A DNA stretch of 48,395 bases from Deltaproteobacteria bacterium (GCA_027028245.1 JALVJO010000196.1:1-48395), one strand, 5' to 3'; positions 76 through 5,621 are shown, numbered from the stretch's first letter. Notes: generated from the sequence alone by a model not told the origin. Translations and numbers: made by a program.

Positions 76-383
76 TATGCACCAAATACCAGGCACTTTT
101 TTGTCTTGACAATGGGGGTAAGTTCATAAAGAACATATATACGATGGAGGGAATGTTAAAGGATGGAAAATTTTTCCGTAAAAAATAAAACGGACAACCC
201 CGTTTCCAAGGTCGTCCGCCGACCGGGCATTCCCAGTCCCTTTGTCACATTTGGTAAGGCCGCTGATTCGCTACGCTGGTTCAGCAGGCCGAAACCTCTA
301 TTGGTTCAAAACCGTTTGGCAGTGAATTTATATTTAAATGTTAAACTGTCAGGCCTTCATGTCAAGAGGAAGATCGGCATTAA
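76..383. other. Non-coding stretch left of the cassette
   Basis: No gene is supported here. An open frame from 163 runs into the AGTGAA repeat, but its product has no recognisable domain, is very basic, and ends in repeat-encoded KVKSEKLKVKSE; it is treated as fortuitous. The N-terminal AlbA_2 half expected for the truncated ATP-binding regulator downstream is not present in any frame. Confidence 0.4.
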
Positions 384-816
384 AAAAGTGAAAAGTGAAA
401 AACTAAAAGTGAAAAGTGAAGGAAGGAGACAAATTGGGAAAATCGGTTCTGAGAGATAAGAGTTATGATTTTGCGATACGGATTGTGAGGTTGTCGCGGT
501 TCCTGATGGATGAGAAAAGGGAATTTGTTTTGAGTAAACAGGTTTTACGAAGCGGAACTGCGATTGGCGCATTGATCCGTGAAGCTGAATTTGCTCAGAG
601 CAAAGCCGATTTTGTCAGCAAAATGAGCATTGCATTAAAGGAGACGAACGAAACCGATTATTGGATTTCCATCTTAAAAGACACCGGTTTTATCAGCAAT
701 GAGCAGTTTGTAAGTTTGCATTCCGACTGCCGTGAATTACTTGCCATGCTGATATCAACGGTTAAAACAGGAAAAAACAAATGACCGACACTTTTCACTG
801 TTCACTTTTCACTTTT
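384..816 (+). mobile_element. Four-helix-bundle cassette, copy 1 (intact)
   Basis: This is a roughly 433-bp unit bounded by imperfect inverted repeats. The left edge begins AAAAGTGAAAAGTGAAAAA at 384 and the right edge is TTCACTTTTCACTTTT at 801-816. It encloses one gene for a four-helix-bundle protein. A second, internally deleted copy in the same orientation lies at 1468-1708 and is nearly identical outside the deletion. The right end carries an ATG (781) overlapping the stop of the internal gene, and this frame continues into the neighbouring gene. The edges are set by comparing the two copies; no target-site duplication was identified. Mobility is inferred from duplication and terminal symmetry, and no transposase is encoded. 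Confidence 0.55.
434..784 (+). CDS. Four-helix-bundle protein (S23/IVS type)
   Basis: This is a small, all-helical protein of the family first described from intervening sequences in 23S rRNA (TIGR02436) and related in fold to Avd of diversity-generating retroelements. Typical family features are visible: the opening RDKSYDFAIRIVRL segment, the helix with LSKQVLRSGTAIGALIREAE, the SKADFVSKMSIALKE helix, and the closing TDYWISILKDTGFI and LLAMLISTVK helices. The TTG at 434 is chosen because AAGGAG lies 5-6 bases upstream; an in-frame GTG at 416 would add six residues but has no ribosome-binding site. The stop overlaps the start of the next frame (ATGA, 781-784), implying translational coupling. 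The molecular role of such proteins is unknown. They are often found beside type I restriction genes, as here. Confidence 0.8.
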   Translation: MGKSVLRDKSYDFAIRIVRLSRFLMDEKREFVLSKQVLRSGTAIGALIREAEFAQSKADFVSKMSIALKETNETDYWISILKDTGFISNEQFVSLHSDCRELLAMLISTVKTGKNK

Positions 817-1503
817 AAGCACCCTGACCGTGCGGAAGCCGACCGTTTTTTCAACTATCCGTTTCCCGCCATTGAAGAAGCCCTCTGTAACGCAGTGTAT
901 CACCGCTCCTATGAAATCAGGGAGCCGGTGGAGGTCCGTATCCTGCCGGACCGGATAACCATTTCCAGCTTCCCTGGGCCGGATCGCTCCATTCGCAAAA
1001 AGGACATGCTCGAATTCCGTTTCCTGTCCCGCCGATACCGCAACCGTCGGGTCGGGGAGTTTCTCAAGGAGCTTGAAATGACAGAGGGCCGGGGAACCGG
1101 CATCCCGAAAATGTTAAGGGCTATTCAAGCAAACGGCTCGCCCATGCCGGTATTCCATACAGATGACGACAGGACGTATTTCCTGGTGGAATTATCAATC
1201 CACCCTGTTTTTGCGAAAGTTTTGAAGCAGAAAGCACTCAAACAAGTTACCCCACAAGTTACCCCACAAGTTATCGATTTACTGAATGCGCTACAGGGTG
1301 AAATGGCGCGCTCGCAGCTCCAGGAACGTCTTGGCCTCAGGGACCGCTTTCACTTTCGAGATGCCTACCTGTTGCCTGCCCTTGAGCATGGGCTCATTGA
1401 GATGACCATTCCTGATAAGCCAAGGAGCAGCAAGCAAAAATATCGGCTGACGGCAAAGGGGAAAAAGAAAGTGAAAAGTGAAAAACTAAGAATGAAAAGT
1501 TAA
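781..1503 (+). pseudogene. C-terminal half of a Schlafen/AlbA-type ATP-binding regulator, refused to cassette start
   Basis: The 240-residue product matches only the second half of COG2865-type proteins (AlbA_2 DNA-binding domain plus GHKL-like ATPase, often called RecG-like helicase C-terminal or Schlafen-related regulators). Visible family strings are FNYPFPAIEEALCNAVYHRS, FPGPDRSI, SRRYRNRR and EMTEGRGTGIPKML. These are followed by the TPQVTPQV spacer typical of the family and a winged-helix-like C-terminus. The N-terminal AlbA_2 domain, usually about 200 residues, is missing. Residues 1-13 (MTDTFHCSLFTFK) are encoded by the right end of cassette copy 1, and the last residues (KVKSEKLRMKS) plus the stop come from the left end of copy 2. 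Both termini are therefore cassette-derived. It may still be translated, but it is probably not a functional full-length regulator. Confidence 0.75.
1241..1276 (+). repeat. Short in-frame tandem repeat (QVTP units)
   Basis: Three near-identical units of about 12 bases (CAAGTTACCCCA and variants) encode QVTPQVTPQV inside the truncated regulator. This PQVTPQV linker is a recurring feature of the family and is probably a flexible joint between the ATPase and the winged-helix part, not an independent element. Confidence 0.6.
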
Positions 1504-1708
1504 GGAAGAAACCAAATTAGCGAAATCGGTTCTGAGAGATAAGAGTTATGACTTTGCGATACGAATTGTGAAATTATCGCGGTTTCTGAAATGACCAGCG
1601 TGCAAGTTTGCATTCCGACTGCCGTGAATTGCTCGCCATGCTGATATCAACGGTAAAGACAGGGAAAAATAAATGACCGACACTGTTCACTCTTCACTTT
1701 TCACTTTT
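1468..1708 (+). mobile_element. Four-helix-bundle cassette, copy 2 (internal deletion)
   Basis: The left half (1468-1593) aligns closely with 384 onward of copy 1, including the conserved stretch encoding VLRDKSYDFAIRIVKLSRF. The right half (about 1600-1708) aligns with the end of copy 1, including the stretch for SLHSDCRELLAMLISTVKTGKNK. The roughly 200 bases between are missing and a TGA interrupts the frame near 1590, so the internal gene is dead. The terminal repeats (AAAGTGAAAAGTGAAAAA left, TTCACTTTTCACTTTT right) and the terminal ATG (1673) remain. An element that kept its ends but lost its core resembles non-autonomous derivatives of mobile elements. Confidence 0.6.
1503..1676 (+). 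pseudogene. Deleted four-helix-bundle gene remnant
   Basis: This is the inactivated relative of the gene at 434-784. The start region is degraded (the equivalent of the TTG start is now TAG after AAGGAAGAAACCAAAT). The central helices are deleted, and only the first helix and last helix coding segments remain. The final codons, TGKNK-stop with the overlapping ATGA, are conserved. That preserved junction still feeds translation into HsdR. Confidence 0.65.
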
Positions 1709-4700
1709 CACTCTTCATCAAAGCCCCGCTTTGATGAAGACTCCATCTCCCAGCTTCCCGCCTTGCACCTGCTTCAGAATCTGGGATGGCAATACCTGAC
1801 GCCGGAGGAGGCGTTGAAGCTGCGGGGCGGCAAACCGGGGGGCGTGCTCTTGGAGGGTGTTCTCGCTGACTGGCTTCGGAAACACAACCGGGTCAGATTC
1901 AAGGGCAGGGAGCTGCCGTTTACCGAGGGCAATATCTTGAGCGCTCTGCAGGCGCTTAAGGAAATCCCCTTTGACGGGCTGGTGCGTACAAACGAGAAAA
2001 TTTATGATCTTCTGTGCCTGGGGAAAAGCCTGCAACAGTCAGTGGACGGCGATATCAAGAGTTTTACCCTGCACTATATCGACTGGGAACATCCAGAGAA
2101 CAACGTCTTTCATGTCACAGAAGAGTTTGCCGTTGAGCGGACCGGCAGTCACCAGACCCGCAGGCCGGATATCGTACTCTTTGTAAATGGTATCCCCTTT
2201 GGCGTGATCGAATGTAAGTCGCCGCACATCAAGGACCCAATACGTGAGGCCATATCCCAGCAGATACGCAACCAGAAGGATGACGAAATCCCCCACCTGT
2301 TTTTATATTCGCAGCTGCTTCTGGCGTTGTCCAAAAATGAGGCCAAGTACGCAACCACGGGAACTCCTGCCAAATTCTGGGCTGTCTGGCGGGAAGAATC
2401 TCCCGATTTTGAAGAGAAGCTGCAAGAACTTGTCAATATTCCTCTGTCGGAAGAACAGGTGGACAAGCTGTTTATTGAAAATGAGTGGCTGGTACGGGAG
2501 AAACCGGCTGAATACGGGACGCTCAAACGACAGGTAACCGAACAGGACCGTGCCCTTTTTGCGCTGTGCCGCCCTGAAAGACTCCTTGAACTTTCCTACC
2601 GCTTCATTCTGTTTGATGCCGGTGTCAAAAAGATTGCACGATATCAGCAGTATTTTTGCGTAAAAAAGATCATGGACCGTATAAAAACCCGCGAGCGTGA
2701 CGGCAGGCGGCGCGGCGGCGTGGTCTGGCACACCCAGGGCAGCGGCAAGTCGCTGACCATGGTGCTGCTTGCCAAGTCCATTGCCCTGTGTCCTGAGATA
2801 CCCGATTACAAGATCGTTCTGGTTACCGACCGGGTTGACCTTGACGACCAGATCTACAGGACCTTCCATCATTGCGGCAAAGAGGTCGAGCAGGCCAGAA
2901 CCGGCAAGCACCTGTCGGATATGCTGAAAGACAACAAAAAACGCATTGTTACCACGATTATTGACAAGTTTGACGCAGCTGTCGGTCGTCACGCCGTACA
3001 CAATGATGATCCCAACATCTTTGTCCTGGTGGATGAGGGGCATCGCGGGCAGTACGGCTCGCGTCATGCCAAAATGCGCCGGGTCCTGCCAAATGCCTGT
3101 TACATCGGATTCACAGGCACACCTGTCATGAAAAAGGATAAAAACACGGTGGAGAAGTTCGGCGGCCTGATTGATACCTATACCATTGACCGGGCGGTGG
3201 CAGACAAGGCGGTTGTGCCTCTTTTATACGAGGGAAGGCATGCCAGCCAGTATGTTGATTCAAAGGGGATAGATGCCTGGTTTGATAAGATTACAGCAAA
3301 TCTAAGTCAAGAGCAGGCCGCAGACCTGAAAAGGAAATTTTCCACCACTGATCAGTTGAACAAGGCCGAACAGAAGGTTATGGCCATTGCCTGGGATATC
3401 AGTGAACATTTTCGCGACAACTGGCAGGGAACGGGTTTTAAAGGGCAATTGGTGGCACAGGACAAGGCCACAGCACTCGCCTATAAAAAGTACCTGGATG
3501 AATTCGGCATGGTTTCAAGCGAAGTGCTGATCTCTGGTCCTGATGAACGGGAAGGTGAAGAGGATCTGTATGAAGAGAACAAGCTGGCCGTGCAGCGGTT
3601 TTGGAAAGCGACTATGCAAAAATACGGCAGCGAACGGGAATACAACAAGCAGGTCATCAATGCGTTCAAACATGCGGAACATCCTGAAATTATCATTGTA
3701 GTGGATAAGCTGCTGGTCGGATTTGACGCACCGCGCAACACCATTTTGTATCTTACCCGCAAACTTAAAGATCATACCTTGCTGCAGGCCATAGCCAGGG
3801 TCAACCGGCTGTGCGATGGCAAAGAATTTGGGTATGTTCTGGATTATCGTGGGGTTTTAGAGAATCTCGACCACGCGCTCGACCTCTACAGCTCTCTACC
3901 TGAGTTTGATGCCGGAGACATTAAGGACATTCTTACTGATGTAAGCGTTGAGACGCAGGCGCTGCCTCAGAGGCACTCGCTTCTATGGGATACATTTAAA
4001 GAGGTTAAGAATAAGCAGGATGAGGAAGAGTACGAACTGCTGCTCGCAGATGAAGAGTTGCGTGCGAAATTTTATGAACGTTTGTCCGCCTTTTCCAACA
4101 CTCTTGGCATTGCGCTTTCCAGCGTCAAGTTTCTGGAGGAAACCGAGCCTTCAAAGATCAGCCGTTACCGGGCAGATCTGAAATTTTTCTCCAAACTTCG
4201 CACTTCGGTGAGGCGGCGGTATGCCGAGGTGGTTGATTTTGGGGAATATGAGCCCAAGATACAAAAACTTCTCGACACTCATGTGGGAACCGGAGAGGTA
4301 GAGAAAATCACCCCGCTGGTTAATATCTTTGACAAAGATGCCTTTGCCAAGGAAGTGGCAAAACTTCCGAAGACGTCAGCCAAAGCTGATACCATAGCCC
4401 ATCGTACAGCCAGAACAATCCATGACCGCATGCAGGAAGATCCGGCTTTTTATAAACGGTTTTCTGAATTGCTAAAGGAGACCATAGCAGCCTTCAGGGA
4501 AGAGCGGATCAAGGCAAACGAGTATCTCAAGCAGGTTACGGAGATTATGAACGCTGTGCTCAACCGCACCGGTGACCACATTCCAGATAAGCTTGCAGGT
4601 CATGATGTTGCCAAGGCGTATTTTGGTTCTATCAAGGAAACTCTGGCGCGGTTTGATAAAGGTGATGACGAGTTCGATGCCGCCATCGCAGACACTGCGC

Positions 4701-4897
4701 TGGCCATAGATGAAGTCATTGAACGAAATCGCATTGTTAATTGGACCAGTGACATAGACACACAAAATCGTATGAGAAATGAGATCGAAGACCTTCTTTT
4801 CAACTTCAAGGACAAAGAAGGCATTGAAATCACGTTCGAGGACATTGATGCGATTATGGAACAGTGTCTGGATATTGCCAGGGTGAGGAGGAAGTGA
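1673..4897 (+). CDS. hsdR: Type I restriction enzyme R subunit (HsdR)
   Basis: This is the ATP-dependent translocase/endonuclease subunit of a type I restriction-modification complex, cutting DNA distant from sites recognised by HsdS/HsdM. The N-terminal PD-(D/E)XK nuclease core is visible (RRPDIVLFVNG then IECKSP near residues 165-182). The SF2 motor follows: Walker A TQGSGKS near 355-361, motif II as DEGH near 453 (DEAH-like with Gly), motif III FTGTP near 481, and motif VI QAIARVNR near 703-710. The C-terminal helical domain runs to residue 1074, which is full family length. The native start appears to have been replaced: residues 1-16 (MTDTVHSSLFTFHSSS) come from cassette copy 2, and the normal sequence resumes at KPRFDEDSISQLPALHLLQ. 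No HsdM or HsdS gene lies in the window; they may be further left. The stop is followed 10 bases later by the metallopeptidase gene. Confidence 0.93.
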   Translation: MTDTVHSSLFTFHSSSKPRFDEDSISQLPALHLLQNLGWQYLTPEEALKLRGGKPGGVLLEGVLADWLRKHNRVRFKGRELPFTEGNILSALQALKEIPFDGLVRTNEKIYDLLCLGKSLQQSVDGDIKSFTLHYIDWEHPENNVFHVTEEFAVERTGSHQTRRPDIVLFVNGIPFGVIECKSPHIKDPIREAISQQIRNQKDDEIPHLFLYSQLLLALSKNEAKYATTGTPAKFWAVWREESPDFEEKLQELVNIPLSEEQVDKLFIENEWLVREKPAEYGTLKRQVTEQDRALFALCRPERLLELSYRFILFDAGVKKIARYQQYFCVKKIMDRIKTRERDGRRRGGVVWHTQGSGKSLTMVLLAKSIALCPEIPDYKIVLVTDRVDLDDQIYRTFHHCGKEVEQARTGKHLSDMLKDNKKRIVTTIIDKFDAAVGRHAVHNDDPNIFVLVDEGHRGQYGSRHAKMRRVLPNACYIGFTGTPVMKKDKNTVEKFGGLIDTYTIDRAVADKAVVPLLYEGRHASQYVDSKGIDAWFDKITANLSQEQAADLKRKFSTTDQLNKAEQKVMAIAWDISEHFRDNWQGTGFKGQLVAQDKATALAYKKYLDEFGMVSSEVLISGPDEREGEEDLYEENKLAVQRFWKATMQKYGSEREYNKQVINAFKHAEHPEIIIVVDKLLVGFDAPRNTILYLTRKLKDHTLLQAIARVNRLCDGKEFGYVLDYRGVLENLDHALDLYSSLPEFDAGDIKDILTDVSVETQALPQRHSLLWDTFKEVKNKQDEEEYELLLADEELRAKFYERLSAFSNTLGIALSSVKFLEETEPSKISRYRADLKFFSKLRTSVRRRYAEVVDFGEYEPKIQKLLDTHVGTGEVEKITPLVNIFDKDAFAKEVAKLPKTSAKADTIAHRTARTIHDRMQEDPAFYKRFSELLKETIAAFREERIKANEYLKQVTEIMNAVLNRTGDHIPDKLAGHDVAKAYFGSIKETLARFDKGDDEFDAAIADTALAIDEVIERNRIVNWTSDIDTQNRMRNEIEDLLFNFKDKEGIEITFEDIDAIMEQCLDIARVRRK

Positions 4898-4922
4898 ACA
4901 GTTAAAAGTGAATAGTGAACAG
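4893..4922 (+). repeat. AGTGAA-type repeat at hsdR/metallopeptidase junction
   Basis: The sequence from 4893 contains AGTGAACAG, AAAAGTGAA and TAGTGAACAG in quick succession. It resembles the left-end repeat of the two cassettes, but no four-helix gene is present. It spans the HsdR stop and the GTG start of the next gene. It may be a collapsed third insertion or a seed site; the resemblance is short and could be coincidental. Confidence 0.35.
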
Positions 4923-5621
4923 GTAGAGATTAGGTTTGGGGACAAGCGATTCCAAATTAAGATTGTTTGGAACCATCGCAAACGTCTTTCCGTTACGGTG
5001 CATCCAGACCTTCGTATCACAGCAAAAGCACCTGCCGGATATGAACTGGAAGTTATTCGGCAGCGATTAGAAAAGCGGGCGTCGTGGATAGCCCGGCAGC
5101 TTGATTTTTTTGAGCGATTTCAACCCCTGCCTTTGGCGCGCAAATTTGTCTCCGGTGAAACTCACTATTATTTAGGCAGACAATATCGTTTGAGAATACG
5201 GCCTGGCGAAAAAGCTCGAGTAAGGCTGATCGGCCGTTTTTTTGAAATGGAACTGCCTGATACAGGCAATAGGGAAAAGGCAAGGGCGCTTATGCTCGAT
5301 TGGTACTCGGCACACGCCAAGGATTTGCTTTCGAGAAGGCTTGCTCAGTACCTGCCTGCTTTTGAGAAGATGGGGGCCATGGTGCCGGAAGTACGTTGCC
5401 GCCGTATGAAGAAACGGTGGGGTAGCTGTTCGGGGAAAGGCGTCATCATGTTGAATACAGAGCTCGTCAAGGCTCCGATCCACTGCATCGATTATGTGAT
5501 TATACATGAACTCTGTCATCTGCTCTATCCACACCATGATAAAAATTTTTACCACCTTCTCGGGCGAATTCTGCCGGACTGGGAAAAGCGCAAGGAACGT
5601 CTGGAAAAGGTGGTAATCTGA
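4908..5621 (+). CDS. YgjP-like zinc metallopeptidase (DUF45/M48-type)
   Basis: This is a predicted soluble zinc-dependent metallopeptidase of the YgjP/SprT-like (WLM/DUF45) group. The zinc motif HELCH is at residues 200-204 with a downstream His pair (YPHH, 209-210). The preceding RRMKKRWGSC block near 165-174 is the family's other signature. At 237 residues the length is normal. The GTG start lies inside AGTGAA repeats, with AGGAGGAAG about 14 bases upstream overlapping the end of hsdR. Genes of this family commonly follow hsdR in type I restriction operons; whether the protein acts on restriction subunits is unknown. The gene is co-directional with hsdR and very probably co-transcribed. Confidence 0.85.
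   Translation: MNSEQVEIRFGDKRFQIKIVWNHRKRLSVTVHPDLRITAKAPAGYELEVIRQRLEKRASWIARQLDFFERFQPLPLARKFVSGETHYYLGRQYRLRIRPGEKARVRLIGRFFEMELPDTGNREKARALMLDWYSAHAKDLLSRRLAQYLPAFEKMGAMVPEVRCRRMKKRWGSCSGKGVIMLNTELVKAPIHCIDYVIIHELCHLLYPHHDKNFYHLLGRILPDWEKRKERLEKVVI

Follow-up and report, generated by a model that had tools for sequence, protein, structure and literature searches.

Overlapping ATGA junctions between adjacent genes are ordinary, and the STRRs of cyanobacteria are sets of heptamer repeats located beside start codons. Arrays of the TAACTGA heptamer adjoining start codons have been described in Beggiatoaceae; these tandem 7-nt repeats are intergenic, often end a few nucleotides before the start and apparently take the place of Shine-Dalgarno sites (PMC4679880). 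Intervening sequences (IVS) of 23S rRNA carrying an S23p ORF are found, for example, in Coxiella burnetii, and their excision by RNase III is known (PMC4990558). Among openly licensed papers, no literature was found on operon-borne four-helix-bundle (FHB) genes with heptamer arrays on either side, and our search of these papers returned no case of such a cassette donating a start or a signal peptide.

Here, a stretch of 48,395 nt from a Deltaproteobacteria bacterium (GCA_027028245.1 JALVJO010000196.1:1-48395), referred to as the window, was analysed. No rRNA is present in the window; its FHB cassettes sit in a restriction-modification operon (Table 1).

Table 1. Features of the cassettes and neighboring genes, in window coordinates
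Feature	Position	Strand	Remarks
Left heptamer array, cassette 1 (AAAAGTGAAAAGTGAA..., GTGAAAA-type)	384..420	+	TGA in its frames; RNA-fold partner of 789-816
Intact four-helix-bundle (FHB; S23p/IVP) gene	434..784	+	TTG start after AAGGAGA; TGA stop within ATGA
Exit ATG, cassette 1	781..783	+	Overlaps FHB stop; AGGA about 8 nt upstream
Regulator C-terminal half (HATPase_c_4 + Fic-like_C)	781..1503	+	Without the N-terminal 284 codons present in L105; stop in left array of cassette 2
Right heptamer array, cassette 1 (CACTTTTCACTGTTCACTTTTCACTTTT, TTTTCAC-type)	789..816	+	Open in exit frame
Left heptamer array, cassette 2	1468..1503	+	Codes for last regulator residues VKSEKLRMKS and stop
FHB remnant	1517..1676	+	TTG start changed to TTA, ~190-bp deletion, internal TGA; ATGA end retained
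Exit ATG, cassette 2	1673..1675	+	Sole plausible hsdR start; AGGGA about 8 nt upstream
hsdR, 1074 aa	1673..4897	+	N-terminus MTDTVHSSLFTFHSS cassette-encoded
Right heptamer array, cassette 2	1681..1717	+	Stands in place of native first codons of hsdR
Third heptamer array, without FHB, at hsdR/ygjP	4893..4925	+	Contains hsdR TGA (4895-4897) and ygjP GTG (4908-4910)
YgjP-like metallopeptidase gene (ygjP)	4908..5621	+	Begins within third array

Cassette ends and gene starts in the window

The FHB gene of cassette 1 runs from TTG 434 to the TGA at 782-784, which ATG 781 overlaps. Profile searches matched it to PF05635 (E 9e-27) and TIGR02436 (E 8e-30), and it is a member of the 23S-rRNA-intervening-sequence protein family. 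It is the sole gene of the cassette, in which no transposase gene was found. The arrays have a period of 7 nt, with TTTTCAC/GTGAAAA as the unit in the window, and the two arrays of cassette 1 are inverse complements. In the predicted RNA fold, left and right arrays pair as a long stem (z -5.1 and -3.7); the former value belongs to cassette 1, whose exit ATG lies just inside the stem. FHB genes with other 7-nt units were also observed, namely GAGTTTT, CAATCCG, CATCTGA, CAGTCCT and CTTCTCC (L027, L034, L025, L035 and L008, respectively), and the two arrays of L034 share one orientation instead of being inverted.

A sequence-only reading of this DNA had noticed that both copies end in the same sequence, and that both ATGs overlap the FHB stop in frames continuing into the C-terminal half of the regulator and into HsdR. 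Both observations were confirmed. The sequence ATGACCGACACT occurs exactly twice in the window, at 781-792 and 1673-1684 (0 expected), and the ORFs 781-1503 and 1673-4897 begin with MTDTFHCSLFTFKHPDRAE... and MTDTVHSSLFTFHSSSKPRFDED..., respectively. Between ATG 781 and the TAA preceding it there is no in-frame start codon. The second copy spans 1465-1717. The second FHB gene is a remnant. The shared right ends do not represent separate events: having one ancestry, the two copies amount to a single exit sequence that was used twice. The repeat (TTTTCAC)n reads FSLFTFH in every frame and is stop-free on the exit strand; on the left side, (GTGAAAA)n carries TGA in every frame. Openness through the array is therefore automatic by composition, and the open frame through the repeat was rejected as evidence. 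Frame continuity is the only informative part, with a chance of ~1/3 per copy and ~1/9 (~0.11) for both.

The lack of another usable start is stronger evidence than the open frame. ATG 1673 is the only plausible start of the window hsdR, in agreement with the earlier claim that a cassette ATG starts HsdR, since an in-frame TAA stands immediately 5' of it and the next in-frame ATG, GTG or TTG is TTG 1763, within the conserved LPALHLL. The compared N-termini read MRAPVLNEDAISQLP in the cassette-free L185, MMITPSINEDAISKLP in L105 and ...SSKPRFDEDSISQLP in the window; the normal HsdR sequence resumes at about residue 2-3 relative to these two relatives, close to the second residue proposed earlier. 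With G328 as the outgroup, 31 synonymous and 10 non-synonymous substitutions fell on the window branch in hsdR, and 14 and 2 in the regulator C-half. As the changes in hsdR are mainly synonymous, it looks constrained on this branch; so does the regulator C-half, although the branch is partly older than the insertion. Poor translation of hsdR, or its rescue via a non-canonical start, could still occur. Because the FHB frame of copy 2 is broken, classic coupling there would need either direct initiation or an internal ORF of short length.

The cassettes had also been described as disrupting genes, which is wrong: they lie at gene junctions. L105 is a Nitrospirae MAG with hsdR DNA 94% identical to that of the window. 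It carries a 3'-truncated FHB cassette 5' of an intact 508-codon regulator and none before hsdR; the small gene before this cassette (L105 3714-3786) matches window 256-328 at 94.5%. Insertion of cassette 1 inside the regulator, splitting it, was rejected as an explanation, since in L105 the cassette precedes a complete regulator, and the regulator of the window is simply without its 284 N-terminal codons. In the cassette-free G328, the regulator stop overlaps the hsdR start as a plain ATGA (CGATGAGG) and hsdR and ygjP likewise overlap, stop to start, as CCGTGAC; the corresponding hsdR/ygjP overlap in G424 (the genome to which L105 belongs) is CCATGAG, as deduced from the two reading frames. 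In cassette-free relatives, stop and start overlap or adjoin at the native junctions (ATGA, GTGA and TAAATG). In the window, arrays occupy both the regulator/hsdR and the hsdR/ygjP junctions, the latter being a plain ATGA or GTGA overlap in relatives. By this comparison, what cassette 2 replaced is the regulator/hsdR junction that is an ATGA overlap in G328. Comparison of the window with L105 and G328 showed replaced junctions with no clear target-site duplication. Relative to L105, dS was 0.74 for the regulator C-half (window 817-1462) and 0.19 for hsdR, and this higher divergence of the regulator C-half suggests that the operon is a mosaic.

FHB genes and their neighbors in other genomes

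FHB loci were collected from related genomes, 84,980 species genomes, the phylum and chosen genomes, giving a survey set of 139 FHB genes with intact 3' ends in 64 clusters by downstream gene. The downstream gene was co-directional with the FHB gene in 127 of 138 cases (64 clusters versus 11 loci, p ~3e-10 for 1:1), and both neighbors were on the FHB strand in 116 of the 132 loci with both scored. The upstream stop fell within the left array in 25.7 of the 40 clusters having one, and in 25 of 45 clusters a downstream ATG stood no more than 30 nt from the right array. An ATGA overlap was present in 26 of 139 FHB genes (19%). Since A precedes the stop in 26 of 47 FHB genes ending in TGA and in 46 of 81 ending in TAA, ATGA is no commoner than the C-terminal codon predicts, with no sign of selection for it. 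The sequence-only reading had asked whether right ends are in frame with the neighbor more often than one in three. Over the 64 clusters, the three frames were found at 26.7 (the ATGA frame), 20.6 and 16.7 (chi-square ~2.4, p ~0.3), indistinguishable from one third each. Outside the largest cluster (cusC), ATGs at -1 to +10 of the FHB stop were in frame in 14.2 of 27 (versus 13.0 for the other two frames together), slightly above one in three in a count that includes genes without an intervening array; a weak general in-frame tendency may thus exist.

The majority of the other downstream genes retain their own ATG shortly past the array; from reading their N-termini, we take them to include a mevalonate-kinase-like gene, hemL and hisG. 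The nearest full-length relative of the window cassette (L018/L056, FHB 89% identical) ends in AAATAACC, with a TAA and no ATG. Gammaproteobacterial FHB cassettes were seen directly 5' of hisG in L106, L107, L109, L120 and L087, and in L120 the FHB stop overlaps the own ATG of hisG (ATGATAACAATCGC). FHB genes also precede one shared kinase-like gene (MKGPLFYSKILLFGEYG), presumably mevalonate-kinase-like from its N-terminus, in many Flavobacteriaceae (L111, L115, L121, L124, L125 and L128-L134); given its recurrence before the same gene, the insertion could date back a long way.

At 27 loci of Flavobacteriaceae, the FHB gene separates an AcrB/CusA-type gene from a TolC-like gene. The exit frame is open in all 27, with 15 loci in one frame and 12 in another, and an ATG is found within -1 to +9 nt of the FHB stop in 26. 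At most of these loci, the residues before the ..AQ end of the signal peptide are array-encoded (IFSFSLFTFHF and similar). Much of the signal peptide of the TolC-like protein is array-coded in L063, L065, L073, L075, L077, L085, L089, L090, L092 and others. Where FHB is absent, in relatives some 93% identical in the TolC-like protein, the spacer is short, the start is an ordinary one, e.g., MKHIKTVFFLFSILFCLKGNAQ, and signal peptides are present. L065/L214 read ..IKRIVIFSFSLFTIHFVNGQ where a relative has MKRIVLIIIGLLSVTFSNAQ, indicating that the native Met was lost. On the tree of the TolC-like proteins, 9 changes between presence and absence of FHB are required (bootstrap 8-11), no fewer than 3 of them forced by well-supported branches. 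These changes, each of which could run in either direction, are more probably repeated gains of the FHB gene, as a native start is unlikely to be rebuilt once lost. As far as DNA comparison can tell, start capture is real in the window and independently so in the cusA/cusC operons.

In plasmids, the cassette had no DNA match, with protein relatives only up to ~56% identity. In viral contigs, 13 TTTTCAC arrays were detected, none with an FHB gene, and the protein search gave one weak fragment; the long TTTTCAC arrays there stand alone (L043-L055). Among genomes of the same class, similar arrays occur only in G007 and G042, indicating that the lineage of the window genome is not full of arrays.

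Explanations for the captured starts

The FHB cassette, of the S23p/23S-rRNA-IVS-protein type and with inverted heptamer ends, lies co-directionally at stop-start junctions of operons, and most probably its ends have been secondarily adopted as stop and start, captured case by case and not as a conserved property of the element. The route would begin with insertion or array growth at RTGA stop-start junctions inside operons. In the window, the stop-bearing left array terminates the upstream gene, and the right array, open in all frames, has taken the place of the own first codons of hsdR. After loss of the native start, selection would have retained the one located at the FHB stop (ATGA, preceded by AGGA or AGGGA) since its frame happened to fit, and HsdR would be made by initiation or re-initiation at ATG 1673 with an array-encoded N-terminal extension. 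Given the random frames elsewhere and no excess of ATGA, start donation would be a by-product of the landing sites of the cassette, not one of its fixed features.

The sequence-only reading had instead proposed a translational-coupling exit built into the element, in which ATGA and the stop-free array evolved to keep downstream genes expressed at any landing site. Both window ends fit this proposal, as do the 27 open exits of the cusC set, the stop-free exit strand and the slight preference of ATGs near the FHB stop for the downstream frame. However, it is very improbable, as frames are close to random over the clusters, the 19% of ATGA ends come without A being enriched ahead of TGA, the nearest relative L056 ends in TAA, most other genes keep an own ATG after the array, and array length changes in 7-nt units, so that the frame could not be preserved on insertion. 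Pure coincidence would combine all-frame-open arrays, frequent A-TGA ends of FHB genes and a lucky frame with a decaying hsdR and regulator fragment whose start is irrelevant. The two-frame chance of ~0.11, the lost N-terminal half of the regulator and the dead FHB gene of copy 2 agree with it. The retained 1074-aa ORF of hsdR with mostly synonymous changes (31:10), the ygjP start likewise within an array and the 27 of 27 open cusC frames, which are hard to ascribe to luck, make it a poor candidate and quite improbable. It is also conceivable, although unlikely, that the arrays act as RNA: they would pair like those of a 23S IVS, RNase III would cut the polycistronic mRNA and separate the FHB part from its neighbors, and the start codons would be incidental. 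The predicted fold, in which a stable stem closes the ends and just encloses the exit ATG, the strongly co-directional orientation and the known RNase III excision of 23S IVS, to whose protein family FHB belongs (PMC4990558), point this way. However, constant excision of the stem would remove the start of HsdR and, in the cusC set, the signal peptide, and lone arrays without FHB exist.

Case-by-case capture can be set in a wider frame, which we put forward as possible rather than probable. FHB cassettes may be a widespread IVS-like class that targets RTGA stop-start overlaps in operon DNA or mRNA, with heptamer ends that repeatedly take over the upstream stop and the downstream start, even a signal peptide, the end of the element thereby becoming a fixed part of a host protein. 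Start capture would offer a concrete route by which a bacterial element that is small, widespread and as yet unexplained rewrites the ends of neighboring genes, among them the signal peptides of efflux proteins in the outer membrane. Related species that differ in whether they carry the cassette form a natural panel for examining captured starts, co-directional insertion and the processing of RNA.

Comparison with described systems

The cassette resembles the IVS of 23S rRNA in its protein family (PF05635/TIGR02436) and in having an ORF between inverted ends predicted here to pair as RNA. It differs in lying within protein-coding operons and not in rRNA, and in having heptamer arrays as its ends; excision is known for the 23S IVS, whereas the cassette is known from sequence. 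Like the TAACTGA-type arrays and the STRRs, the window arrays are tandem 7-nt units next to starts. Unlike the TAACTGA-type arrays, their unit is TTTTCAC/GTGAAAA, they are arranged as inverted pairs on the two sides of an FHB gene, and they supply coding residues together with start and stop codons. No transposase gene accompanies the cassette, in contrast to an insertion sequence or transposon. As in termination-reinitiation coupling at ATGA, the upstream TGA overlaps the next ATG (781 and 1673), the upstream ORF contains an AGGA-like site, and hsdR has no competing downstream start, the next being TTG 1763 in a conserved domain. In ordinary ATGA coupling the upstream ORF is a functional partner, whereas here it is an inserted cassette gene, and in copy 2 a remnant of one.
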